Shown here piece after piece: positions 4,390 through 23,895 of a stretch of 40,376 nucleotides of DNA; positions within the stretch are counted from its first letter, which is position 1, and each line of letters starts with the position of its first letter. Source of the stretch: Rhodoferax sp. (GTDB lineage: Bacteria; Pseudomonadota; Gammaproteobacteria; Burkholderiales; Burkholderiaceae_C); the NCBI GenBank assembly GCA_020048255.1, contig JAIFMR010000087.1, positions 1-40,376 on the forward strand, in the 5' to 3' direction. Made by a program: the position numbers and the translations under genes. The notes beneath the pieces are model-generated. The model made no database searches and had not been told where the DNA came from. It saw only the letters and a list, made by a program, of their open reading frames with translations.

Positions 4390-5796
4390 ATGGACATGAT
4401 CGGGCTTTACCCCACATGGTTTGAACCGGGTGTGGGCAGCGGCTGGATAGTGGGTTTGATCGCCACCATCCACGTGCTTTTTTCGCACACCTCGGTGGGT
4501 GCGGCGATATTTTTTGCTTTTCTGGCCAACTACGCTCATCGCAACCAGCGGCCTGATCTGCTGGAATTCATACGCCACTATGGGCTGTTTTTGCTGGTGT
4601 TCAGCTACGTGCTGGGGTCCATCACTGGCCCAGGCATTTGGTACTCCACCACAGTGGCCAGCCCCCGAGGTATTTCGGCGCTGATTCACAGTTTTGTTTG
4701 GATGTGGGCCACCGAGTGGGTGTTTTTTGTGATCGAGGTGGTGGGGGTCTACATGCTGGTGTACCTGGCCAACAAGCTCGATCGCCAGACCTACCTGAAA
4801 CTGTCGCTGATTTTTGGCCTGACCTCCTACACCACCATGCTGGTGATTGTGGGCATCTTGAGCTTCATGATGTGGCCCGGCAAGGCCGATTGGTACGAGC
4901 ACGGTGGTGTGCTCAGCGCCTTTTATGGCCCCAACACCTTTGCCCAACTGGGTATGCGCACTGCGTTCATGTTCACTATGACCGCCGTGGTGGGCGGCAT
5001 TGTGGCGGCACGTTTCAAGGATGCCGCGTTTAAAAAAGATGTGGCGGGCAAGCTCGCCTGGCTGGGCATTGTCTCGGCGGCAGCTGGTGCGGCCATGTTC
5101 CAGTGGTACCTGAGCACCTTGCCTGAAACCGCCGCGTTGGTGCTGGAAAACCGCTTGCCCGGTTGGTTCAAACCCGCGGTGTTGGGTATTTTGGCTGGCA
5201 TGGCGGGCTACTTTGTGATGACTTTGGTGCGCCCATCCACGCTGGTGGTCAGCGGCGCATCTGCCATGACGGTGGCGGTGCTGGTGTTTGGCCTGTGGCC
5301 TGAAGAGGTCACCCGCGAATCCATCCGCAAGCCGTGGGTTGCTGGCCAATACGTGTACTCCAATCAAGTGATTGGGCGCGACGTGCCTGGCATGGGCATC
5401 ACGTCCGAGATCCCCACCATTGAGGCGCACGGTTTCATGAAAACCCAGGTGTTCATGCCTGAGGGCCTGCGCACCATCACCGATGCCAATCGCCTGGAAG
5501 CCGGGCGTGTGCTGGCGTTGACAACGTGTTCCAACTGCCATTCGCTCAGCAGCGGCGGCATGCGGCCGTTGAAAAACTATTTCACCGCCAACAGCACCAC
5601 TGCCGAGGTGGCCGAGTACCTGCAAGCCGGTTTGTCCAGCGGTAACACGCTGTACATGCCGCAAATCCCGCTCAAAGACGATGAGGCACTGGCCTTGGCA
5701 ACCTACATTGGGTCGCTCACCGGTGTGCCCGCTGCCGCCACCGCTTTGGCATTGCCCAGCGTGTCCACCCCCATGTCTAAGGAGTCCGCACAATGA
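4390..5796 (+). CDS. Cytochrome bd-superfamily-like membrane subunit with C-terminal haem-c domain
   Basis: Multi-TM; IVGLIATIHVLFSHTSVGAAIF resembles the CydA N-terminal haem-ligand helix; C-terminal CSNCH c-haem motif in a cytochrome c-like tail. Confidence 0.7.
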   Translation: MDMIGLYPTWFEPGVGSGWIVGLIATIHVLFSHTSVGAAIFFAFLANYAHRNQRPDLLEFIRHYGLFLLVFSYVLGSITGPGIWYSTTVASPRGISALIHSFVWMWATEWVFFVIEVVGVYMLVYLANKLDRQTYLKLSLIFGLTSYTTMLVIVGILSFMMWPGKADWYEHGGVLSAFYGPNTFAQLGMRTAFMFTMTAVVGGIVAARFKDAAFKKDVAGKLAWLGIVSAAAGAAMFQWYLSTLPETAALVLENRLPGWFKPAVLGILAGMAGYFVMTLVRPSTLVVSGASAMTVAVLVFGLWPEEVTRESIRKPWVAGQYVYSNQVIGRDVPGMGITSEIPTIEAHGFMKTQVFMPEGLRTITDANRLEAGRVLALTTCSNCHSLSSGGMRPLKNYFTANSTTAEVAEYLQAGLSSGNTLYMPQIPLKDDEALALATYIGSLTGVPAAATALALPSVSTPMSKESAQ

Positions 5797-7016
5797 ACAC
5801 CGACATGCTTTACGCCTTGCGGGACCCCGCTGGGGTTCCATCCCACCCGTTGGTGTTTTTGATTCTTGGGGTGATCACCTTTGCCCTGCATATGGCGGCC
5901 GTACAGGTCATGCTGGGGGCAGGTGCCCTTACCCTGCGCGGGGCCTTCAGTGCGCATGCCCATTGGCGTCGGCTGGCAGCAGCCATGCTGACCACGTCCA
6001 AGATTGCCGTGTCGGTGGCGGTGGTGATCGGGGTGGCACCGCTGTTGTTTGTGCAGGTGGTGTACGACCCGTTTTGGTACACCTCCAATGTGTTGTCGGC
6101 CTGGTGGGTGATTGGCTTCATCTTTTTGCTGATTGCCGGGTACATCGCGCTGTATGTGTTTTATTGGAAAAACCACGACATCGCGGCCGATGGCGGCAAA
6201 GGTGGGCTGTGGCTGGTGGCGTCATTGGCCATGCTGTTGGGTGTGGGCTTCATCGTGCACAGCCTGACCAACCAAATGCTGTTTCCTGAGCAATGGATGG
6301 CTTGGTACGCCCCAGGCGGCGTGGTGCAGCCCAACGGGCAAGCCTTGCATTACTGGAACTTGCCGCGCTTTGGATTCTTCATTGCTTTGTCGGCGCCAGT
6401 CACGGGGGCTTGGCTGTACGCCTACCGCCGGTACCTGCAGGCATCTAGCCATGTGGACGCGTCGTTCATAACCTGGCTGGCCCCGTTGGCCCAAAAGCTG
6501 ATGCTGGTGGGTGGCGTGGTGGCTGTGCTGCTGGGGGCGTGGTGGATGGCCACTTTGCCTGAAAAAATGGCCTGGTTTGCCCTGTCGCCCTGGAGCTTGG
6601 TGGCGCTGCTGGCCTTGCTGGCCACGGTGTCGGTTCCGCTGCTGCTGGGCAAGCGCATGGACCAGGGCCTGTGGGGTTACGTCACCTTTGCGGTCGGTGC
6701 GGTGGCGCTGATCGTGGTGGGGGCCATGCGCGAGGTGCTGCGCTACGTGACGCTGTTAGGTTCGCACGGCTACGATGCTCTGGACTACCGTATCAATATG
6801 GACTGGTACAGCACCGGCTTGTTTTTCAGTACCTTTGGCGTGTTGGGCGGCGTGACCCTGGCCTATCTCATCACCGTGGCCTGGCAAGCGGGCCAGACAG
6901 AAGGCACCTACACACCTAGCCCGGCGGTCAACCGCCTAGGCAGCATGGCCATTGGCCTGCTGGTGCTGTGGACCGTGTCATATTTCCTTGTTGGCTTTTA
7001 CGTGTGGGCAAGATGA
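5793..7016 (+). CDS. Second membrane subunit of the bd-like complex
   Basis: ATGA overlap with upstream gene; about 9-10 hydrophobic segments; HPLVFLILGVITFALHMAAVQVMLGAG N-terminus. Confidence 0.65.
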   Translation: MNTDMLYALRDPAGVPSHPLVFLILGVITFALHMAAVQVMLGAGALTLRGAFSAHAHWRRLAAAMLTTSKIAVSVAVVIGVAPLLFVQVVYDPFWYTSNVLSAWWVIGFIFLLIAGYIALYVFYWKNHDIAADGGKGGLWLVASLAMLLGVGFIVHSLTNQMLFPEQWMAWYAPGGVVQPNGQALHYWNLPRFGFFIALSAPVTGAWLYAYRRYLQASSHVDASFITWLAPLAQKLMLVGGVVAVLLGAWWMATLPEKMAWFALSPWSLVALLALLATVSVPLLLGKRMDQGLWGYVTFAVGAVALIVVGAMREVLRYVTLLGSHGYDALDYRINMDWYSTGLFFSTFGVLGGVTLAYLITVAWQAGQTEGTYTPSPAVNRLGSMAIGLLVLWTVSYFLVGFYVWAR

Positions 7017-7444
7017 CCATGAAAACATCCACTTCATCCTGGCTTGCGGCCAGTGCTTTGGCCACCGCGGCGGTGGCTGCCATGGTCTGGCAACCCTCTG
7101 TGGCTTCAGAGTCAAATCAGCCTTTAGCCCCCGCCAATAAAGGCGTCGTTGCTATGAGTAATGCAAGATCTGCTGCCCCAACCGTGCCAGTGTCAGGCGA
7201 GGCCATGGCGCACAGTTGCGCAGCCTGCCACGGCACGCAGGGCCGTTTGGGTGACGAGTCGTTCATGCCACTGGCTGGCATGCCACAGGGGCAGTTTGTG
7301 CGCAGCATGGTTGATTTTCGGCAAGACAAGCGTCCAGCCACCTTGATGGGCATCGTGGCCAAAGGCTTCACCGACGCTGAAATTAACGCCATGGGCAGTT
7401 ACTTTGCTGCCGTCAAACCCATGTCCGAAGGAGCCAAGCCATGA
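7013..7444 (+). CDS. Secreted monohaem c-type cytochrome (putative FccA-like partner)
   Basis: Signal peptide, CAACHGTQGRLGDESFMPLAGMP cytochrome c motif; ATGA overlap with upstream gene, immediately upstream of fccB. Confidence 0.75.
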   Translation: MTMKTSTSSWLAASALATAAVAAMVWQPSVASESNQPLAPANKGVVAMSNARSAAPTVPVSGEAMAHSCAACHGTQGRLGDESFMPLAGMPQGQFVRSMVDFRQDKRPATLMGIVAKGFTDAEINAMGSYFAAVKPMSEGAKP

Positions 7445-8805
7445 GCGCATTGAACCCAACACGGCGGCAGATGCTTGCCAGTTCGGTCATGCTGGGCGCC
7501 AGCTTGGCGTTGCCCGCTTGGGCCCAAACCGCTGGTAAGTCCGCCAAAGGTGCGCGCATCCTCATCATTGGCGGTGGGGTGGGCGGTGCTACTGCTGCCA
7601 AATACCTGAAATTGTTTGACCCAACCCTGCAGGTGACGGTGGTTGAGAAAAACCGCACTTACATCCGACCCTACGGCTCCAGCGAGGTGCTCAACCAGCA
7701 CACCAGCATGGCCGAGCTCAACGTCAGTTACGACGTGCTGGCCAGCCGGTATGGGATCCAATTTGTGTTTGATGCGGTAACCGGCTTTGACCCGGTGGCT
7801 CGAACCGTCAGCACCGCAGGCAAACTCAAGCTGGGCTACGACCGGCTGATTGTGTCGCCCGGCATTGAGTTGCTGTACGACGCCTATGCTGGCTACTCTG
7901 AACAGGTGGCCAACACCACCGTGCCCTCGGGCTGGATCCCTGGCGCACAAACCGCGCTGCTGGCCAAACAACTGCAAGGTATGCGCCAAGGCGGCACGTT
8001 TGTGTTGGCGGCCCCGCCCAACCCCTACCGCTGCCCGCCTGGCCCGTATGAGCGCCCGGCGCTGATGGCCGAGTGGTTGAGCCAACACAACCCCACGGCG
8101 AAGGTCATCATCGTTGATCCCAAAGACAGTTTTGTCACTGACGAGACCATGATGCTGGGCTGGAACCGGCTCTACAACTTCAACCTGCCCGAGGATTACG
8201 TCAAAAAAATGTCGCCTCTGGTCGAGGTCAAACACCATGCCACCCCCGGCATGCTGAGCTGGGTGCGTGGCAAGGACGGTGGTCGCACTTTGAGGATTGA
8301 TGCGAAAAAAATGACCATTGAAACTGAGGCCGAAGTCATCAAAGCCGACGTGATCAACGTCATCCCGCCGATGCGGGCTGGCAAAATTGCCGCCACCTTG
8401 GGCCTGACAGACAAAAGCGGCTGGTGCCCGGTGGGTCGGCGCGACTTTGCCTCAGAACTGCACCCCCATGTCCATGTGATTGGTGATGCGTGCGTCGCTG
8501 ATGCCATGCCCAAAAGCGGCTTTTCTGCCAACAACCAGGCCAAGGTGGTGGCGCGCGCCATCATCGAGTCTTTGGCCGGCCGCCCAGCGCCCGAGCCCTT
8601 GATGGAAAACACCTGTTACGCCCTGGCTGGCAAAGACTACGGCCTGTTTGTGGCCGACGTGTTCAAGGTGGTCGATGGCAAGATCGCCCGCATCAACGGC
8701 AAGGCGCGTTACCTGCCCCTGAATGCCAGCGCAGCCCAGATCAAGTTGGGTGCACGTTACCAGCAAGCCTGGTTGCGCACCTTCACTCAAGACTGTTTTG
8801 CATGA
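7441..8805 (+). CDS. fccB: Flavocytochrome c sulfide dehydrogenase flavoprotein subunit
   Basis: Twin-arginine-type leader RRQMLASS, GGGVGGATAAKYLK FAD motif, NPYRCPPGPYER and ENTCYA cysteines, HVIGDACVADAMPKSGFSANNQ. Confidence 0.9.
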   Translation: MSALNPTRRQMLASSVMLGASLALPAWAQTAGKSAKGARILIIGGGVGGATAAKYLKLFDPTLQVTVVEKNRTYIRPYGSSEVLNQHTSMAELNVSYDVLASRYGIQFVFDAVTGFDPVARTVSTAGKLKLGYDRLIVSPGIELLYDAYAGYSEQVANTTVPSGWIPGAQTALLAKQLQGMRQGGTFVLAAPPNPYRCPPGPYERPALMAEWLSQHNPTAKVIIVDPKDSFVTDETMMLGWNRLYNFNLPEDYVKKMSPLVEVKHHATPGMLSWVRGKDGGRTLRIDAKKMTIETEAEVIKADVINVIPPMRAGKIAATLGLTDKSGWCPVGRRDFASELHPHVHVIGDACVADAMPKSGFSANNQAKVVARAIIESLAGRPAPEPLMENTCYALAGKDYGLFVADVFKVVDGKIARINGKARYLPLNASAAQIKLGARYQQAWLRTFTQDCFA

Positions 8806-9611
8806 GGCCCGCCATGATCATCACCCCCACATTCCACCGGCTCTCACCCCATCGGTTCACACCCAGCCAGTTGGGTGGGTTTGCCCGCACTCTTGCACTG
8901 GCCTTGGTGAGCCTGGCTGGATTGTCTGGGCTAGCCAGCGCAGCAACCCATGAACTTGCCCCAGCGGCGGCTCCATGGACGCCCACAACGCTGCGCACCA
9001 CTCTGGCCGCCTTGCCCCAGGGGCACGCCCAGGCTGGCAAAAAGGTGCACGACGAGCTGTTTTGCGCCTCTTGCCACGGTGCGAATGGCGTTGCGCCCAC
9101 CCAGAACTGGCCACACCTGGCCGGCCAAAAGGCCGCCTACACCGCCAAAATGATGTTGGACTACCAGGATGCCCGCCGCCTTGAGGGCAAACGCGCCGAA
9201 CTCATGCACGACATCGCCGTGATGCTGAGCCCCCAGCAAATTGCCGACGTGGCCGCCTTTTATGAGGCCCAAACACCCGCCGTAGGCGACGGCACACCAC
9301 GCCCGAATATCACCTTGGGGGCCCAAGATGTGGGTGCTGCTACGTTGGTGCGCAAGGGCGACCCCGCCCGTCTGATCACCCCGTGTGCCAGTTGCCACGG
9401 GGTGGCCGGGCAGGGCGGCAAACGCGAAGCCTCGGCCCTGGCCGGGCAAAACCCGCTGTATTTTGTGCGCACCATGCTGGATTTTCAGAACGGCACACGC
9501 CACAACGACAGCGTCAAAGGCATGCGTTCGTTTGCTAAAAAACTCAGTCGCAGCGAGATTGGCGCGCTGGCCACGTACTACGCCGACTTGCCCGCCGGAC
9601 AAGCCAAGTGA
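8802..9611 (+). CDS. Dihaem cytochrome c (c4-like)
   Basis: Two CxxCH (CASCHGANG, CASCHGVAG), LAGQ repeats, signal peptide; ATGA overlap with fccB. Confidence 0.8.
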   Translation: MRPAMIITPTFHRLSPHRFTPSQLGGFARTLALALVSLAGLSGLASAATHELAPAAAPWTPTTLRTTLAALPQGHAQAGKKVHDELFCASCHGANGVAPTQNWPHLAGQKAAYTAKMMLDYQDARRLEGKRAELMHDIAVMLSPQQIADVAAFYEAQTPAVGDGTPRPNITLGAQDVGAATLVRKGDPARLITPCASCHGVAGQGGKREASALAGQNPLYFVRTMLDFQNGTRHNDSVKGMRSFAKKLSRSEIGALATYYADLPAGQAK

Positions 9612-9672
9612 TGCCCTTGGCCGCCAACCCAACTGCGCAAGCCCCCCTTAACCCATCACGTCCAAGCCAACC

Positions 9673-10404
9673 ATGACACGATTGCAAGTTGAGTCACAGT
9701 TTGACCGCGCTACCTCGATCTTCAGCCACATTCTGTGGGATGAGTCGACCCGCCACGCCGCGCTGATCGACAGCGTGCTTGACTACGACCTGAAATCGGG
9801 CCGTACTCGAACCGCCAGTACCGACCAGTTGGTCCAGCGCGTGACCGAACTCAAGCTGCAGGTGCTGTGGCTGTTGGAACCCTCCGTACAACAGACATCG
9901 CTTGGGTCAAAGCTGAGTCGCGCAATGTTGACTTGGGTCGTGGGTTTTGCGCTTGTTTTAGGCATCTGCCAAACGGCTCTGGCACAGCTGCCAGCTGAAG
10001 TTGCCGTGGGCCAGGCTTTGCCCGTGTTGACTTTGAAAGACCAGCATGACAAACCTTGGGTGATACCAGTCAGCACCCGGCTGGTGCTGTTTGCCGCGGG
10101 TCGTAAAGCCTCAAACCTGGTTCAAATCGTGTTGCAGAGCATGCCCAAAGATCCGTTAACTCCGCGTGCGGCGGTGTACCTGGTCGACGTGAGCAAGATG
10201 CCAGGTTTCATCACTCGCAACTTTGCCTTGCCGTCCTTGCGTGAAATGCCTTACCAGATTGGTGTGTCGCTGGATGAGGCCACCCTGGCCAACTGGCCGC
10301 GTCATCCCGATGCCGTGACGCTGATCGAAGTCGATCAAAGCCGGGTCAGGCGTATCCGTTATGCTAGCACCGAGGCCGAATTGCGTACCGAGTTGGCACC
10401 TTAG
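9673..10404 (+). CDS. Chimeric ORF: N-terminal persulfide dioxygenase/Blh-like MBL fragment (about 69 aa) joined to a secreted thioredoxin-fold-like protein
   Basis: aa 1-69 FDRATSIFSHILWDESTRHAALIDSVLDYDLKSGRTRTAST...LWLLE matches the MBL persulfide dioxygenase N-terminus, ending just before HxHxDH; then a signal peptide from internal Met at nt 9925 (MLTWVVGFALVLGICQTALAQ). Confidence 0.7.
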   Translation: MTRLQVESQFDRATSIFSHILWDESTRHAALIDSVLDYDLKSGRTRTASTDQLVQRVTELKLQVLWLLEPSVQQTSLGSKLSRAMLTWVVGFALVLGICQTALAQLPAEVAVGQALPVLTLKDQHDKPWVIPVSTRLVLFAAGRKASNLVQIVLQSMPKDPLTPRAAVYLVDVSKMPGFITRNFALPSLREMPYQIGVSLDEATLANWPRHPDAVTLIEVDQSRVRRIRYASTEAELRTELAP

Positions 10405-10473
10405 CTCAGCCGTTTCGGCGTCGCGGTGCAATTTTTTATTTTGTTGATTTGTTTCTTTAACTCAGGAGTTTTC

Positions 10474-10887
10474 ATGAAGAAATTAGTTTGCCTAGCAGCC
10501 GCCGTGTTGTCGCTGTCGTTGTCCGCGCAGGCGGGCGAGTTGTTTGTATCCATCAACAGCGCCAGCCCCATGACCCAGGGCGCTGGTTTGGTATTGGCCA
10601 GCCAGGCCTTGGAGCAAAAGTCCAGCGTGAGAGTGTTGTTGTGTGATGGAGCGGGTGATGTGGCCGTAGCCGGCAAAGAGATGCCAAGCTTGAAACCTAA
10701 AAACGTGACTGCACAGCAAATGTTGCAAGGCCTGATCAAAGCCGGTGCCAAGGTCGAAGTCTGCGCGCTGTACCTGCCCAACACCGGCCGTCAAGCCACA
10801 GACTTGATTCCGGGTGTGACCCCTGCCAAACCCGCCGAAGTGATCACCTATCTGCTCAAACCAGAGGTGACCACACTGTCGTTCTAA
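10474..10887 (+). CDS. Periplasmic DsrE/DsrF-family-like protein
   Basis: Signal peptide MKKLVCLAAAVLSLSLSAQA; FVSINSASPMTQGAGLVLASQALEQ...VRVLLCDGAG pattern; SD aggag before ATG at 10474. Confidence 0.7.
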   Translation: MKKLVCLAAAVLSLSLSAQAGELFVSINSASPMTQGAGLVLASQALEQKSSVRVLLCDGAGDVAVAGKEMPSLKPKNVTAQQMLQGLIKAGAKVEVCALYLPNTGRQATDLIPGVTPAKPAEVITYLLKPEVTTLSF

Positions 10888-11389: not shown

Positions 11390-12436
11390 TCAGAACGCCT
11401 CTTTTTCTGCCTCTAGGTACGCCAGGCTGGTGTACTTGCCGATGTTGGAATCAAAGCCCAGCATGGTCTTGGCCCGGCTGGCCACGCGGGGGTCGGCCAG
11501 CACCATGGCCTTGGCTTCTGCCTCGCTCTTGCCGTCCTTGATGGCTTGCTGGCAAGGCTCCCAAATGCCTGCCAAAAATTTGCCATAGGTGTCCAGCAGG
11601 TCAAAAGTGGCTTCGCCATGTCCGGGCAGCCAGAGCTGCTTGCCTGCGCCCGCGGCCAGTTCCTTGAAGTACTTGAAGGTGCCGGGGTAGGAGCCGTCGT
11701 CAATGTTGGCTATGCGGTTGGCCATGGCAATGTCGCCCACTGCGGTGATCTGGTCTTGCACCACCTGAACACACAAATCTGCTGTGGTGTGCGCCTTACC
11801 GTAAAAATGCATTTTCAGGGTGATGTCACCAAACTGGAGGGTTTGTCCGTGTTTGACCTCGGTGTTGGGCGGCACGACCTTGGTGCCCGCTGTGGCCTGG
11901 TTGGTCCAACGCTCCATCAGGCTACGCCAAAGGTTGCCTTCATAACCCTTGATCAGGTTCATGGTTTCGGCCAGGGCGTAAATCGGTAACTTGTCGCCAT
12001 AGGCCTGCGCAAAGGCGTGGTTGCCGAGCCAGTGGTCGCCATGAACATGGGTGTTGAAGACCGCAATGACGGGCAACGGTGTCACTTTTTTGATCATGCG
12101 AATGGCCATCTGGCCAATTTGCAGTGAGCTGCCCGAGTCCAGGATCACCACACCGGCGCTGGTCACGACAAAGGTCACGTTGGACATCATGCCGTGGTTT
12201 TCAGGTGTCGGGAAACCATCGGTGGCAAAGATGGTCCAGACATGTTTGGACAACTGCTTTGGTGCGATGTCAGGGACCGGGCCGCCCTCAATGAAGTCAC
12301 CAACCTGGTCTGCCAGTGATTTGGCCTCTGGCCACAGTGCCAGGCCGGTGGCGCCCAGGGCCACTCCGGCGCCTAGCAGGGCGCGTCGGGTCAACAGGGT
12401 GGGGCGGTCCGAGGGGGGCAGGTAAGGCGCTTTCAT
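11390..12436 (-). CDS. Exported SoxH-like MBL-fold metallohydrolase
   Basis: LTRRALLGAGVALG leader, NTHVHGDHWLGNHAF (HxHxDH), LPGHGEATFD motifs. Confidence 0.8.
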   Translation of the reverse strand: MKAPYLPPSDRPTLLTRRALLGAGVALGATGLALWPEAKSLADQVGDFIEGGPVPDIAPKQLSKHVWTIFATDGFPTPENHGMMSNVTFVVTSAGVVILDSGSSLQIGQMAIRMIKKVTPLPVIAVFNTHVHGDHWLGNHAFAQAYGDKLPIYALAETMNLIKGYEGNLWRSLMERWTNQATAGTKVVPPNTEVKHGQTLQFGDITLKMHFYGKAHTTADLCVQVVQDQITAVGDIAMANRIANIDDGSYPGTFKYFKELAAGAGKQLWLPGHGEATFDLLDTYGKFLAGIWEPCQQAIKDGKSEAEAKAMVLADPRVASRAKTMLGFDSNIGKYTSLAYLEAEKEAF

Positions 12437-12473
12437 GCACAGGTCTCCACAATTTATGATGAAATATTGTCAG

Positions 12474-12501
12474 GTTGCCCACGCCAAATGGCGCTGGCAA
12501 C
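12474..12501. promoter_or_regulatory. 28-bp interrupted palindrome in divergent intergenic region
   Basis: GTTGCC-cac-GCCA-aa-TGGC-gct-GGCAAC. Confidence 0.4.
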
Positions 12502-12548
12502 TGTGGATTCAATACTATCTCAATTTTTAATTTCAATAGGAAACCCCG

Positions 12549-12929
12549 ATGAAGACTGCTCACGACCTCGTTGCCGCTGCCAAGGCAAACATTCAAGAAA
12601 TTTCGGTGGCTGAAGCCGAACAAGCGATTCGCGAAGCCGATGTGTTGGTAGATGTGCGCGAGGCGGATGAGTACGCTGCAGGTCATGTTCCTGGCGCGGT
12701 GCACGTGTCGCGCGGCATGCTGGAGTTCAAGTTCAGTGCCAATCCAGCCCTGCAGTCGCGCGACTTGGCGGTGGTGCTGTACTGCAAAACCAGTGGCCGC
12801 GCTGCCTTGGCCAGCGCCGCTTTGCATGAGATGGGCTACCTGAACGTGCGCTCTATCTCTGGCGGGTTTGATGCTTGGGCGGCTTCGGGTAAACCTGTCG
12901 CCAAGCCAGAAATACCGTCGTTTGAGTGA
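12549..12929 (+). CDS. Rhodanese-like domain protein
   Basis: LVDVREADEYAAGHVPGAVHV and active-site loop YCKTSGRAALA. Confidence 0.9.
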   Translation: MKTAHDLVAAAKANIQEISVAEAEQAIREADVLVDVREADEYAAGHVPGAVHVSRGMLEFKFSANPALQSRDLAVVLYCKTSGRAALASAALHEMGYLNVRSISGGFDAWAASGKPVAKPEIPSFE

Positions 12930-12970
12930 CGATTCCACTTGTCTGCATCCTTGGGTTTAATACGGCTTCG

Positions 12971-12984
12971 TTGATTTAAATCAA
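12971..12984. promoter_or_regulatory. FNR/Anr-type box TTGATTTAAATCAA
   Basis: Exact TTGAT-N4-ATCAA about 90 bp upstream of the c-type cytochrome gene at 13075. Confidence 0.7.
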
Positions 12985-13074
12985 TCGGTCGAGGGAAGGA
13001 GCCAGTGCTGACGGGTGTAGGATGCATCGGCACTTTCTTACAGAACTCTCAAACAGAAAAAAAGGACAGACAAG

Positions 13075-13425
13075 ATGATCCGCATTCAAACAGCAACTCT
13101 CATACGGACTTTTTTGGCCATCGGTTTGACAGCCGGCGCGATGGCTGTGCAAGCACAAGTGGTTGACGTTGCTGCGGCTGAAAAACTGCTGGATGACAGC
13201 AAATGCGGCAAATGTCACTCGGTAGACAAACAAAAAGATGGCCCTGCTTACAAAAAGACGGCGGCCAAGTACAAGGGCAAGGCCGACGCAGAAGCCAAGC
13301 TGTTCACCCACCTGACCACTGGCCCGACCGTTGAACTTGATGGTGTCAAAGAAGAGCACACCAAAATCAGGTCCAAGGATGAAGCTGCCATCAAGAACGC
13401 TGCTCGCTATATTCTGTCGCGCTGA
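13075..13425 (+). CDS. Secreted class I c-type cytochrome
   Basis: Signal peptide; KCGKCHSVDKQKDGPAYKKTAAKYKGK. Confidence 0.85.
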   Translation: MIRIQTATLIRTFLAIGLTAGAMAVQAQVVDVAAAEKLLDDSKCGKCHSVDKQKDGPAYKKTAAKYKGKADAEAKLFTHLTTGPTVELDGVKEEHTKIRSKDEAAIKNAARYILSR

Positions 13426-13451
13426 ATGGCCGCCACTTTCGGCCATTCAAG

Positions 13452-14042
13452 ATGAAATCAATTTTTAGATGGATTCGCCAGCATTGGCTGCTGTCGATCG
13501 GGCTTGCTGCCGGGCTGGGTTTTTTTTCGGTGGCAGTGGGAATTTCTGGTGCTTATGTATTGGCCCATACCAGCACGGAAGAATTTTGCGTTGGCTGTCA
13601 TGAAATGTCGTACAACTTTGCAGAGTACAAAGGCACCATTCACGACACCAACCGCACTGGTGTGCGCGCTATTTGCACCGATTGCCACGTGCCGCATGAG
13701 CCCGGCCCCTTGGTCTTGGCCAAGATCAAGGCGACCAAGGATCTGTATTACACCTATATCTCACCGTCCATAGATACCAAGGAAAAATTTGAGGCCAAAC
13801 GTGCCGTGATGGCACAACGTGTGTGGCGCGAGATGAAGGCCACGGACTCGCACGAATGCCGCAGTTGTCATCGGGAGGACAAGATGAGTGTGGATTTGCA
13901 AACCCCCAAAGCCAAAGTGCGCCACGCCAAGGGCAAGGCCGAGGGCAAGACCTGCATTGAATGCCATTTTGCGATTGCCCACAAAGAACCTGATGGTCCA
14001 GGGCCTGCAGAGTTGTTTGGTGATGCGGCTGCCAAGCCGTGA
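13452..14042 (+). CDS. NapC/NirT-family tetrahaem cytochrome c
   Basis: N-terminal TM anchor; CVGCHEMSYNFAEYKGTIH, CTDCHVPHEPG, CRSCH, CIECHFAIAHKEPDGPG. Confidence 0.9.
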   Translation: MKSIFRWIRQHWLLSIGLAAGLGFFSVAVGISGAYVLAHTSTEEFCVGCHEMSYNFAEYKGTIHDTNRTGVRAICTDCHVPHEPGPLVLAKIKATKDLYYTYISPSIDTKEKFEAKRAVMAQRVWREMKATDSHECRSCHREDKMSVDLQTPKAKVRHAKGKAEGKTCIECHFAIAHKEPDGPGPAELFGDAAAKP

Positions 14043-14073
14043 TCGTTTGTTGTTTATTAACCGAGGAGAAAAG

Positions 14074-14574
14074 ATGAAATTGAACTTATTGGCTTCTGTG
14101 GCCTGTGCTGTGATTGCTTTGCCCGTCATGGCCGCTGACGTGACCTACCGCAAGGACGTGGCACCTATCCTCAAGAAGTACTGTGCAGAATGCCACTCTG
14201 AAAAGGCCGAGTCGCCTTCCATGGCGGAATTCAAGTTGGACGAGGAAAAGTATAAAAAAGCCAAAGTTGGCCCCCGTAGTGATACCTACGAGCATCTTCT
14301 CCAATTGGTCAATGGCAACTCGACAGGTGCTTTCATGCGCCGCCTGGACGACGGCACCAATCCCTATGCCAAAGGCAAGCCCGGCAATATGTACCTTTAC
14401 TTGTGTGAAAAGGGCAACACCAACAACAACGCAGAATGCGCGGCCAATTTGGCGGTGCTCAAAGCCTGGGTGGTGGGTGAGGGCAACCAGTGGGATATGA
14501 ATGGCATTGGCCAACGTGGTGACATGCCTCCCATCACCTTGGAGCAATTGAGAAAGATGAAGCTCAAGTATTGA
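14074..14574 (+). CDS. Secreted cytochrome c-like protein (PSCyt1-type)
   Basis: Signal peptide; DVTYRKDVAPILKKYCAECHSEKA; aggag SD before ATG at 14074. Confidence 0.75.
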   Translation: MKLNLLASVACAVIALPVMAADVTYRKDVAPILKKYCAECHSEKAESPSMAEFKLDEEKYKKAKVGPRSDTYEHLLQLVNGNSTGAFMRRLDDGTNPYAKGKPGNMYLYLCEKGNTNNNAECAANLAVLKAWVVGEGNQWDMNGIGQRGDMPPITLEQLRKMKLKY

Positions 14575-14620
14575 TGCAGAGACAACAGGCGTGTTGCCTT
14601 TGGCTGCACGTCAGTTGATC

Positions 14621-14652
14621 AAAAAAAGCCGCTGAAATCAGCGGCTTTTTTT
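14621..14652 (+). terminator. Rho-independent terminator
   Basis: aaaaaaaGCCGCTgaaatcAGCGGCttttttt; lies between convergent genes and could act in both directions. Confidence 0.85.
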
Positions 14653-14699
14653 CGCGATGTGACCTGCGCCGGCTTGCGCCTGCGCCATCAACGGCCGAC

Positions 14700-16001
14700 T
14701 TAACGCCGCTCCTGCAAGGTCTGGATGTACGCCAGAATGTCATGAGTGACAGCGGAGTCGATTTCTCTGAGGGCGGGCATGGTGTCATCCGGATGGCCGT
14801 TGAGCATATTGTGCAAACTGTGCCAGGGGTCACCACGGGAGACCTTGCCCAAATGGCGCTTGGCCACAAACTGACCTTCCAGGCCATGGCAGCCGGCGCA
14901 CATGGTGCGGTAGTGGGCCCGCCCTTTGGTTGTGTCGCCGCGGGCGAGTCCGGTTTTTGGGTCTATGACCGAGTCCACATCGATCTGTCCATAACTTACA
15001 AAATTGGCCAGATCTTGCAGGTCGCGGTGCTTCAGGACCGCTCCATAGAGATGAGTTGCACCACGCAAGATCGCCATGGTTTTGGCTGGGTCAGCGCCGG
15101 CCATGGCGCGGATACCTTTGATTCCGGTGGCATGGCTGCCTTTGGCATACTGGCCTTGATCACCTTTGTAGTCCCAGCCGTGGCATTCTTTGCAGCGCCA
15201 GGTTTCATTGGCGGAGTTAGCGTAATAGGCCTTGGGCGGGTAGGCTGGGTGCGGTAGGGCCTGGCGTTGGCCGCCAGTGTGCACTTGCCAATCGTCATAC
15301 AGCCTGCCGCCGTTGGCCACCGAAGCGACCAGATTCAGGCTGCGCAGGGTTTGTAAATAGGCCAACATGTTCACGGCAGTGTCTTCGCCCAGGGTGCGCA
15401 AGGCAGGCATGTTGCCACCAGGGTGACCGTTGAGCGCGACGTGAAGAATTTCTACCGGGCGTTGCCGGGCGGACTCCCCCAGTGGCGCGATTTCACGCAG
15501 ACGGTCGCCTTCAAGGCCGTGGCACGCGGCGCAGACGGTGGCAAACACCTTTTGTGCGGAGGTTTGTCCTGGCTTGACATGTTTGGCCATCCCCACCAGT
15601 CGATTCATGTCGTACTGACCACTGGCAACAAAGTTGGCCAGGTCCAGGCGGTCGTTGTCGTCGAGTAGTTCGTCGTACCCGTGGTTGGCATCTTTGAGCA
15701 GTGCAGCGATAGCTTTCACGTCTGCCTTATGGCGGCCCTGAATGCCTATCACACCGTTGTTGCCCTTGTAGTCCCAGCCATGGCACTCCACACAGCGCCA
15801 AGTGTCCGACGTCACCCCTCGAGTCTGCTTGGTTTTAAAAGCTGGATTGATGTGGTTGGGTGTGCGACCCTTGATTTCGGCAGCCCAGTTGTCGTAAAGG
15901 CGCCCCCCCCGCACCACAGACGCGGGGTCATTGGCACTGGCGGGTGACAGTGTGAGAGCCGCCGTCATGGCCACCACCGTGGCAAGCAACATGCGTTTCA
16001 T
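14700..16001 (-). CDS. Secreted tetrahaem cytochrome c made of two tandem dihaem repeats
   Basis: CVECHGWDYKG...CAACHGLEG and CKECHGWDYKG...CAGCHGLEG in two about 215-aa repeat halves; signal peptide from MKRMLLATVV. Confidence 0.85.
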   Translation of the reverse strand: MKRMLLATVVAMTAALTLSPASANDPASVVRGGRLYDNWAAEIKGRTPNHINPAFKTKQTRGVTSDTWRCVECHGWDYKGNNGVIGIQGRHKADVKAIAALLKDANHGYDELLDDNDRLDLANFVASGQYDMNRLVGMAKHVKPGQTSAQKVFATVCAACHGLEGDRLREIAPLGESARQRPVEILHVALNGHPGGNMPALRTLGEDTAVNMLAYLQTLRSLNLVASVANGGRLYDDWQVHTGGQRQALPHPAYPPKAYYANSANETWRCKECHGWDYKGDQGQYAKGSHATGIKGIRAMAGADPAKTMAILRGATHLYGAVLKHRDLQDLANFVSYGQIDVDSVIDPKTGLARGDTTKGRAHYRTMCAGCHGLEGQFVAKRHLGKVSRGDPWHSLHNMLNGHPDDTMPALREIDSAVTHDILAYIQTLQERR

Positions 16002-16115
16002 TGTGTGTCTCCTTGAAGGGCGCGAGAGTTCGCAAACCATTCTAGGTTTGCGCGCTGGCCTTACAAAAATGATTGCAGAGAAAAGAGGCTTGTGGCGGTC
16101 CGCTTCTCTCATTCA

Positions 16116-16129
16116 TTGATAAAAATCAA
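16116..16129. promoter_or_regulatory. FNR/Anr-type box TTGATAAAAATCAA
   Basis: Exact TTGAT-N4-ATCAA 115 bp upstream of the tetrahaem gene start (minus strand). Confidence 0.65.
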
Positions 16130-16152
16130 TCAATTGAAGGAGCAAATTTTTG

Positions 16153-16872
16153 CTAAAGGGCCCGGCCCTCGCCCGCCTCTTCAACCGTCTGCCCATCGCG
16201 TATGTGATAAATCCGCTTGAAAGTCGGGATGATCTTTTCGTCGTGGGTCACCACAATGATCGCCGTATGCGCTTGCAAAGCCATCTGGTTGAGAATGCGC
16301 ATGACACCCAAAGCCCGTTCACTGTCTAAAGGTGCCGTGGGTTCATCGGCCAAGATGACTGGAGGCCGGTTGGCCAGCGCCCGTGCAATGGACACCCGTT
16401 GCTGCTCGCCACCGGAAAGTTGCGACGGCTGGGCTTTGGCACGGTGCTGCACGTCCAGCGCTGTCAGCAGCTCAAGCGCCCGGGCTCTTGAACTGGTGTT
16501 GGCTTGGCCAGCGAGCATAGGCAGCAGGGCCACGTTGTCCGTCACGTCCAGAAACGGAATCAGATACGGTGCCTGAAAAATAAAGCCAATGCGGTCACGC
16601 CTCAGTGCACGCAGGTCCGCCACTTGCCAGCCGTTGTCGTAAATGACGTCATCACCGAGTGTCATCTTGCCCGAGGTGGGTTCAATGATGGCACCCAGGC
16701 ATTTCAGCAGTGTGCTTTTGCCCGAGCCTGACGGGCCGACCAGTCCAACGACCTCACCCGGTGCGACCGACATGTTGACGTTTTTCAGAGCCTCTACGGC
16801 GCTGTCGCCCTGGCCATAGACCTTGCGCAGGTTTTCAATGTGGATGCCACCACCTGATGCTTGGTTGGTCAT
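16153..16872 (-). CDS. ABC transporter ATP-binding protein (LolD/MacB/DevA-like)
   Basis: GPSGSGKST Walker A, LSGGEQQRVSIARAL signature, VILADEPTAPLD Walker B. Confidence 0.9.
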   Translation of the reverse strand: MTNQASGGGIHIENLRKVYGQGDSAVEALKNVNMSVAPGEVVGLVGPSGSGKSTLLKCLGAIIEPTSGKMTLGDDVIYDNGWQVADLRALRRDRIGFIFQAPYLIPFLDVTDNVALLPMLAGQANTSSRARALELLTALDVQHRAKAQPSQLSGGEQQRVSIARALANRPPVILADEPTAPLDSERALGVMRILNQMALQAHTAIIVVTHDEKIIPTFKRIYHIRDGQTVEEAGEGRAL

Positions 16873-16875
16873 GGT

Positions 16876-18069
16876 TTATCCAATCGCCTCAGCGGGGTCT
16901 ACCTTGAGCGCGACTCGAATCGCCAGGGTGCTGGCCAGTGCACAGATCAGTAACGTGGCGACCAGACCCACCGCGGAGTCTTTGGGCAACAACAAGACAT
17001 ATTTTGGGAATACCGGTGCCCAGCTGGTGGCAGCCACTTTGCCCACCATGAAGCCGATCAAGCCCAGGCCTAAAGCCTGTTGCAAAATCATGCCAGCGAT
17101 GGTGCGGTTGCGGGTGCCAATGAGCTTGAGAACCGCAATCTCCCGAATTTTTCCCATGGTCATGGTGTAGATGATGAAGGCCACAATGGCCGCACTGACC
17201 ACCGACAAAATGACCAGAAACATGCCAATCTGGCGGGCTGAATTGGCAATCAGCTTGGCCACCAAAATCTCTTCCATCTGCAGGCGGGTAAACACCTGAA
17301 CATGTTTCCAGCGTCGAAGCGGTTCGGCCACTTGCTCGGGCTGCCAGCCGTCCTGCAACTGCACCAGCACGGCATTGACGCTGTGACTGCTGGTCTGCAG
17401 TCCCAGTACCGCATCGAGCAGGCCTGGCACGCCCGGGCGATTAAAGGCCGGGTTGGACGCCGTGCGCAGGCGGTCGCTCACGATGGTGTCGTTGTCCTTG
17501 AGAAACTGCGCTTCCTGTGCGTCTTTCAGGGGGATGAACACCATGGGGTCGCCACCCGAGGACACCATGCGCTGGGTCAGGCCCACCACCGTGTAAGTGT
17601 GACGGCGCACGCGCAATTCTTCGCCCAACTGGATGCCGGTTTTGACATCGACGACCGCCTCATAGTGGTTACGGGTCAGCTGCCGGCCCGCCACCAGATA
17701 AGCTGGCGCACCAGGTTGGCCTGGCTCGGTGCCGACTACCATCACCCGGACTTCGTCGCCGCTGGCACGTTGAACCTGCTGAGTCAGGTAGGTGACGTTG
17801 GCAGCCTGGCCCACACCTGGCATGCCGCGCACACTGCGTACCACATCGTCCTTGAGGCTGGAAGCTTCGGCATATGGACCTTGCGTGTCTTTTTGGACCA
17901 CCCAAAGGTCAGCACCACTGTTGCTCAGCAAAGCCTGGGCGTCATCCACCATTCCGCGGTAGATGCCAGCCATGGAGAGTGTCACGCCAATGAGCAAGCC
18001 CAGCCCCAGGCCCGTCAGGGCGAATTTGCCCCAGCCGTGCAAAATATCGCGCCCGGCCAGGCTGATCAT
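16876..18069 (-). CDS. ABC transporter permease (FtsX/DevC-like)
   Basis: Single N-terminal TM, large periplasmic domain, C-terminal FtsX-type TM domain with GKIREIAVLKLIGTRNRTI. Confidence 0.85.
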   Translation of the reverse strand: MISLAGRDILHGWGKFALTGLGLGLLIGVTLSMAGIYRGMVDDAQALLSNSGADLWVVQKDTQGPYAEASSLKDDVVRSVRGMPGVGQAANVTYLTQQVQRASGDEVRVMVVGTEPGQPGAPAYLVAGRQLTRNHYEAVVDVKTGIQLGEELRVRRHTYTVVGLTQRMVSSGGDPMVFIPLKDAQEAQFLKDNDTIVSDRLRTASNPAFNRPGVPGLLDAVLGLQTSSHSVNAVLVQLQDGWQPEQVAEPLRRWKHVQVFTRLQMEEILVAKLIANSARQIGMFLVILSVVSAAIVAFIIYTMTMGKIREIAVLKLIGTRNRTIAGMILQQALGLGLIGFMVGKVAATSWAPVFPKYVLLLPKDSAVGLVATLLICALASTLAIRVALKVDPAEAIG

Positions 18070-23165: not shown

Positions 23166-23207
23166 ATGTGGCATTTCACTTGGGTGTTGGTCATTCTGAA
23201 TGCACAT
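23166..23207 (+). pseudogene. Possible CydX remnant
   Basis: aagga-N5-ATG then MWHFTWVLVILNA, resembling CydX (MWYFxWILG...ILNAMW) with the middle missing; overlaps the next gene start. Confidence 0.35.
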
Positions 23208-23895
23208 GGCTCATCAAATCACCTTTATCGGTTCAGGTTTTGGCGCACTGTCAACCGTGCACGAAGTGCGCAAGCGCGATGCGCAGGCAGACATCACGCT
23301 GATTGCGCCACTCGTCGAACTGCATTACCTGCCGGGCTTCATCTGGATTCCCTATGGCCTGCGCACGCGTCAGCAGTTCATCATTCCTTTGGAAAATTTC
23401 TTTACCCGTATGCGCGTCAGGCACGTGGTTGCTGAAGTGACAGGCCTGCGCGACGGTGGCAGATGGGTCGATTCCACAGCAGGCGAGGTGCGTAACGATG
23501 CGCTGGTGATTGCCTCTGGTGGGCGCTTCATCAAGAAGCTGCCCGGCATTGAGCACGCTATCACGCCATGCGAAGGCATCGCAGCTGCCGAGAGAATTCG
23601 TGATCGGCTGAAAGCGATGTCGGGTGGCACGATTGCCATTGGTTTTGCCGGCAACCCCAATGAGCCCAGTGCCGTGCGTGGCGGGTCGATGTTTGAATTT
23701 TTGTTTGGCATCGACGAGCAGCTTAAGCGGGAAAGGCGACGCGACAAGTTTGAGTTGGTCTGCATCATTGACGCAATTGACCACGGTACCGTCGTGTTTT
23801 GCAATGAAAAGCGGCAAATCATCCTGCCGTCGTCACGCCTGTTCCGTTGGGTTAAACGCGGGTTTGAAATCGCTTACTTGAGGAAATACAAATGA
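23200..23895 (+). CDS. Sulfide:quinone oxidoreductase-family flavoprotein with large internal deletion
   Basis: FIGSGFGALSTVHEVRKRD...LVIASGGRFIKKLPGIEHA...GGTIAIGFAGNP N-terminal half and the typical C-terminus (CIIDAIDHGTVVF..LPSSRLFRWVKRGFEIAYLRKYK) joined directly. Confidence 0.75.
   Translation: MHMAHQITFIGSGFGALSTVHEVRKRDAQADITLIAPLVELHYLPGFIWIPYGLRTRQQFIIPLENFFTRMRVRHVVAEVTGLRDGGRWVDSTAGEVRNDALVIASGGRFIKKLPGIEHAITPCEGIAAAERIRDRLKAMSGGTIAIGFAGNPNEPSAVRGGSMFEFLFGIDEQLKRERRRDKFELVCIIDAIDHGTVVFCNEKRQIILPSSRLFRWVKRGFEIAYLRKYK

Follow-up and report, generated by a model that had tools for sequence, protein, structure and literature searches.

The cytochrome bd superfamily includes the OR-C group, in which a haem c is carried at the C-terminus of subunit I, and the OR-N group, which lacks haem c. 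For the flavocytochrome c sulfide dehydrogenase (FccAB) family, periplasmic sulfide oxidation by FccB with a cytochrome partner is established. The division of the bd superfamily into qOR, OR-C and OR-N is given in three papers (PMC13189123, PMC10839748, PMC11707229), which cite Murali, Gennis and Hemp 2021. For the OR-N enzymes of Nitrospira and Nitrospinota, both the use of cytochrome c and a construction from two paralogues have been proposed (PMC10839748, PMC12324825). Known FccABs are described as soluble periplasmic proteins, and cases of membrane-bound flavocytochrome c (Visser 1997, Kostanjevecki 2000) are cited in PMC12010331, with that of Thiobacillus sp. W5 (Visser 1997) also cited in PMC3504083. 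Papers on sulfur bacteria give fccAB and the oxidases separately (PMC10892978, PMC5733100), and in one of these a Thiocapsa gene annotated as cytochrome c4 adjoins that for FccB and the physiological role of flavocytochrome c is called unclear (PMC10892978). In the literature searched, the scope of which excluded the key reference (Murali 2021), no description joining fccAB to a bd-like oxidase was found. The parts of the locus examined here are of known kinds, and their dedicated coupling appears undescribed in that literature; no biochemical data for this operon were found.

The locus lies in a stretch of 40,376 nucleotides (hereafter the window) of a Rhodoferax sp. genome (GCA_020048255.1, contig JAIFMR010000087.1). 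This genome is only 54 % complete and, hence, absences from it mean little. We consider it probable that the locus encodes a cytochrome c-fed bd-superfamily oxidase of the OR-C type together with a dedicated FccAB, forming a chain from sulfide to O2 in which the electron flow and the use of O2 as acceptor are inferred.

Composition and distribution of the module

The ORFs are listed in Table 1. The preliminary description had proposed an operon of five genes held together by four ATGA overlaps, and both the ORF coordinates (4390-9611 overall, all on the + strand) and the overlaps were reproduced. Domains for haem c were found by Pfam at the C-terminus of subunit I, including the CSNCH tail remarked on earlier, and in the 143-aa and 269-aa proteins.

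Table 1. ORFs of the module and of the region immediately downstream, with positions in the window
Product	Position	Strand	Size and features
Subunit I	4390-5796	+	468 aa; CSNCH at residues 380-384
Subunit II	5793-7016	+	407 aa; predicted bd fold, no c-haem
FccA-like monohaem cytochrome c	7013-7444	+	143 aa; CAACH; signal peptide
FccB, FAD subunit of flavocytochrome c sulfide dehydrogenase	7441-8805	+	454 aa
Dihaem cytochrome c4	8802-9611	+	269 aa; two CxxCH
Deletion fusion ORF, outside the core module	9673-10404	+	By comparison with relative locus L023
Small secreted protein, weakly DsrE-like	10474-10887	+	Weak TIGR04044 match

A single scan covering 85,462 species genomes returned 233 related stretches, and the best 80 of the 233 (79 loci) were examined. 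These best 80 come almost exclusively from beta- and gammaproteobacteria that oxidise sulfur or are thiotrophic, and carriers include Thiomonas, Thiobacillus, Thioalkalivibrio, Halothiobacillus, Thiomicrorhabdus, Thiothrix, Thiocapsa, Rhodoferax and Hydrogenophaga. Among the best 80, the whole module was present in every one of the 58 relatives that are at least 55 % identical and have at least 5.2 kb of downstream sequence. As all 58 hold the same five genes together, a chance explanation is unnecessary, and the operon is real, conserved and well delimited. The gene order is that of the window in 54 of them, and in the remaining four (Halothiobacillus and Guyparkeria relatives) it is FccA-like cytochrome c, FccB, subunit I, subunit II and cytochrome c4. 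The occurrence of the same content in two gene orders suggests that the module may be made up of two blocks, fccAB and I-II-c4.

In Thiomicrorhabdus heinhorstiae, the five-gene module is found twice in tandem (L072:5948-16851), and the two FccBs have diverged, sharing 42 % and 38 % identity with the FccB of the window. In another genome (L132:3898-11777), approximately 2.5 kb of inserted DNA interrupts the middle of subunit I, and subunit II, the cytochromes and FccB are intact downstream. The names given in plasmid records of related proteins are 'cytochrome c' for subunit I and 'hypothetical protein' for subunit II; present annotation conceals the bd-like complex.

Subunit I

By its predicted fold, its match to the CydA profile and its conserved active-site residues, subunit I is a member of the bd superfamily, as had been surmised before any comparison was made. 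Structure prediction against CydA had been set beforehand as a test of this assignment, and it was met, the bd fold being found and the haem-ligand positions conserved. When the AlphaFold model (pLDDT 71, moderate confidence) was used in a fold search, bd oxidase chains took ranks 1-12 with probability 1.00, the best PDB matches being A chains. Profiles were needed to recover the relationship from sequence: the subunit I and CydA profiles match with an hhalign E value of 3.6e-6, single-sequence hhalign gave no match to CydA or CydB, and family profile searches gave no direct match of either window subunit to any bd family. PF01654 was matched weakly by 36 of 57 subunit I relatives (best 1e-5).

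The residues H19, E99, E107, E445 and R448 of CydA correspond to H28, E109, E116, E310 and R313 of subunit I, and these are invariant in all 63 aligned relatives. No single continuous alignment covers them; H28 and E116 were assigned from a profile alignment to CydA, E109 was equated with E99 by helix spacing, and E310 and R313 with E445 and R448 by the shared motif ExxR[KQ]P[WYF]. H28, E109, E310 and R313 are also kept in five deeper members, among them those of Methylosinus and Thermus, and the E116 position is Asp in Thermus and kept in the others. Equally conserved (63/63) are C380, C383, H384 and M423 of the haem-c domain (C380-S-N-C383-H384 plus M423). Eight TM helices are predicted with both termini periplasmic (positive-inside topology), which places the end of subunit I outside, on the side where the haem c must be.

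The quinol loop of CydA had been reported as not obvious in subunit I. The Q-loop (K252/E257) is indeed absent, the gap between TM6 and TM7 being approximately 17 residues, and the haem b558 ligands H186 and M393 are missing as well, with no counterpart in subunit I and T or another residue at the H186 position. Thus, though CydAB (qOR) is resembled in the fold and in the positions of H19, E99, E107 and E445, the criteria for a qOR are not met, as the b558 ligands, the Q-loop and a CydB subunit (see below) are all missing and a haem c is added. The O2-site residues, the lack of a quinol site and the haem c at the C-terminus of subunit I are shared with OR-C; the difference is that the enzyme here has a dedicated FccAB and a cytochrome c4 linked to it. 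By these characters, and not by an OR-C HMM or a placement in the published tree, the module fits OR-C as generally defined.

These residues also bear on whether the membrane complex might reduce a substrate other than O2, such as NO, or send electrons from sulfide through haem c to quinone. Though several carriers are, by name, denitrifiers or facultative anaerobes and the FccB-linked enzymes are without known activity, this seems improbable given that the residues of the CydA O2 site do not vary and that the quinone-site residues and Q-loop are absent.

Subunit II

The preliminary description had counted two bd-like membrane subunits. A bd fold is indeed predicted for both, with bd oxidase A and B chains topping the fold search for subunit II (model pLDDT 91.7). 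What had to be refined is the identity of the second subunit, as the subunit II profile matches those of subunit I (hhalign E 7e-7 to 1e-7) and does not match CydB (0.06) or CydA (0.06). This rules out subunit II as a CydB; profile and modelled fold make the two subunits paralogues, and the membrane part is, hence, a paralogous pair and not CydA-CydB. H33 of subunit II is at the H19 position (histidine in 66/66) and E314 at the E445 position, where distant members have His; equivalents of E99 and E107 are lacking.

Two superfamily paralogues in place of CydA and CydB, and a proposed cytochrome c donor, are also features of the OR-N/CydAA' enzymes. There, however, the donor is tied to nitrite oxidation, whereas here the operon itself encodes both the haem c and a sulfide dehydrogenase. 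As OR-N lacks haem c, the match in paralogue pairs is not grounds for filing this complex as OR-N.

FccB and the cytochromes

The identification of FccB was upheld by its domains (PF21706, 3e-39; PF09242, 1e-18) and by full-length alignment to flavocytochrome c sulfide dehydrogenases of known structure, namely 1fcd_A (2e-102), 3vrd_B and 5n1t_A. Both conserved active-site cysteines (in RCPPGPYER and NTCY) are present when aligned to 1fcd, and an N-terminal export signal is inferred. The best PDB match of the 143-aa cytochrome is 1fcd_C (1e-12), the FccA chain of the Allochromatium flavocytochrome c. With the haem subunit FccA as its nearest match, it would be the expected partner of FccB, and on this similarity it is likely to be FccA. 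The 269-aa dihaem protein is a cytochrome c4 (6q2u, 9e-25) and is proposed to be the shuttle to subunit I. The monohaem and dihaem cytochromes recognised earlier can, thus, be named more precisely. With the FCSD flavin-binding and central domains, the two cysteines and a cytochrome partner, the criteria for FccAB are met, sulfide:cytochrome c reductase activity being only inferred. The resemblance to the solved FccABs (1fcd, 3vrd, 5n1t) lies in the full-length FccB and the FccA-like monohaem partner; unlike the soluble periplasmic proteins, the FccB clade found here is linked to a membrane oxidase.

In Thiohalocapsa and Thiocapsa (L037:12846-13445; L039:8073-8567), two consecutive monohaem cytochromes, not one, precede FccB. 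The adjacency of cytochrome c4 and FccB published for Thiocapsa (PMC10892978) fits the module and was unnoticed as such there.

History of the linkage

A tree was built from 34 bd-linked and 43 unlinked FccBs, low-scoring unlinked sequences being taken in to lessen sampling bias. The linked FccBs form one clade (SH-aLRT 100, one change) that is apart from all sampled stand-alone FccBs. Independent recruitments of FccB, which had been suspected from its varying identity, are ruled out by this tree. A second FccB of the window genome is very divergent; encoded on a different contig (L163, G000:C148), it is unlinked to bd-like genes and lies outside the bd-linked clade. In the subunit I tree, those linked to FccB also form one clade (94/90, moderate support), nested among FccB-less c-haem bd relatives. 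The simplest reading of the two trees is that a cytochrome c-fed oxidase gained a dedicated sulfide dehydrogenase once; FccAB would have been recruited to the oxidase core early in the beta/gammaproteobacterial sulfur oxidisers. The linkage of oxidase and FccB, on which the preliminary description relied, is strong: synteny is conserved, the module occurs in two gene orders and the linked FccBs have a clade to themselves.

Subunit I is not always tied to FccB; relatives lacking FccB and sharing 27-56 % identity with the window rule out a full association. Full-length relatives of subunit I were present in ten of 369 evenly sampled class genomes, with FccB alongside in seven, and FccB was present in 116 genomes of the same sample. 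Subunits I and II without FccB were accompanied by a single cytochrome c (a second copy in Thiomonas and a Methylosinus plasmid) or by cytochrome c4 (G716), and in four FccB-less relatives (G282, G386, G714 and G824) subunit II carries a haem c too. Relatives with only cytochrome c or c4, or with extra c-haems, are as expected of a cytochrome c-fed enzyme. The Methylosinus plasmid genes (L209) lie beside methanobactin genes, and a Thermus thermophilus plasmid (L210) has the bare subunit pair, without FccB and with a DsrE-family gene nearby.

Relatives that manage with only cytochrome c or c4 would also suit a general cytochrome c oxidase, drawing on the whole periplasmic c pool, to which FccAB would contribute electrons used mostly by cbb3/aa3; the operon would then reflect co-regulation in sulfidic, low-oxygen conditions and there would be no dedicated chain. 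Haem-copper oxidases were found in all eight genomes checked, including that of the window, so electrons from FccAB could go elsewhere and the proposed chain is not the sole outlet; moreover, cytochrome c4 is a general shuttle. Nevertheless, we regard this alternative as unlikely: in the sample no member of the private FccB clade occurs apart from the oxidase, the ATGA coupling is tight, and the module has persisted where its genes are rearranged, all of which points to a specific partnership.

Proposed electron route

If the locus does encode a sulfide-to-O2 chain, FccB and the FccA-like cytochrome would oxidise sulfide in the periplasm and electrons would pass from sulfide to FAD, FccA, cytochrome c4 and the haem c of subunit I. 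From there they are inferred to reach two high-spin haems on H28, E109 and E310, for which the ligands are conserved and the haems have not been shown, and O2 would be reduced at this pair with protons from the cytoplasm passing E116, at the position of E107 in CydA. Against this reading, loss of the b558 site leaves the relay from haem c to the active site unspecified; subunit II, in which one histidine and one Glu/His ligand position remain, may carry a relay haem. On this route electrons would pass through neither the quinone pool nor the bc1 complex. A canonical CydA was not found in four carriers with essentially complete genomes and, hence, the complex does not accompany an ordinary bd oxidase.

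Whether FccAB, cytochrome c4 and the two-paralogue c-haem bd complex are physically assembled into one membrane-bound, copper-free sulfide:O2 oxidoreductase is doubtful, and this is put forward only tentatively. Were it so, such a complex might explain the membrane-bound flavocytochrome c of Thiobacillus sp. W5, which is no more than a lead. If the proposed chain operates, flavocytochrome c gets a defined terminal acceptor, and there would be an added aerobic route of sulfide oxidation needing neither quinone nor copper, by which cells could burn sulfide with O2 while avoiding the quinone pool. For the c-haem bd branch, a donor has been proposed with little or no biochemistry, and here the likely donor is encoded in the operon. 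As the operon is found in cultured sulfur oxidisers (Thiomonas, Halothiobacillus, Thiomicrorhabdus and Thiothrix), the question of the donor is directly testable.

Genes downstream of the module

Two of the original assignments needed correction. The first ORF after the module had been taken for a 243-aa thioredoxin-like chimera. Its first part comes from a metallo-beta-lactamase (persulfide-dioxygenase-like) gene, of which residues 1-70 are joined to a secreted protein, and in the close relative L023 two separate intact genes (16099-16986 and 17089-17628) match the two halves. This rules out a designed fusion, and by this comparison the ORF is a deletion fusion. In L023 (15362-17628), the operon is followed by peroxiredoxin, intact metallo-beta-lactamase and secreted-protein genes; the peroxiredoxin gene is absent from the window. 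The DsrE label on the next ORF has no support from Pfam, the only match being a weak one in NCBIfam (TIGR04044, 6e-5), and this gene joins the operon mainly in close relatives.

Canonical bd oxidases are often protective, and the peroxiredoxin, persulfide-dioxygenase-like and DsrE-like neighbours in close relatives could be taken to indicate a module for detoxification of O2 and sulfide with little role in energy conservation. We give this very little credence, as those neighbours are missing from most gammaproteobacterial loci, while conservation of E116, on the proton path of CydA, in every aligned relative and the presence of the module in obligate sulfur lithotrophs both fit energy conservation.

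Further along the window (11390-16112) are more redox and sulfur genes, encoding a SoxH-like metallo-hydrolase, a rhodanese, a small cytochrome c, NapC/NirT-type and PccH-type cytochromes and a multihaem cytochrome c. At 23200-23895, a sulfide:quinone-reductase-like or FccB-like ORF ends at 231 aa, which is short for the family, and directly precedes a truncated-haemoglobin-like ORF.
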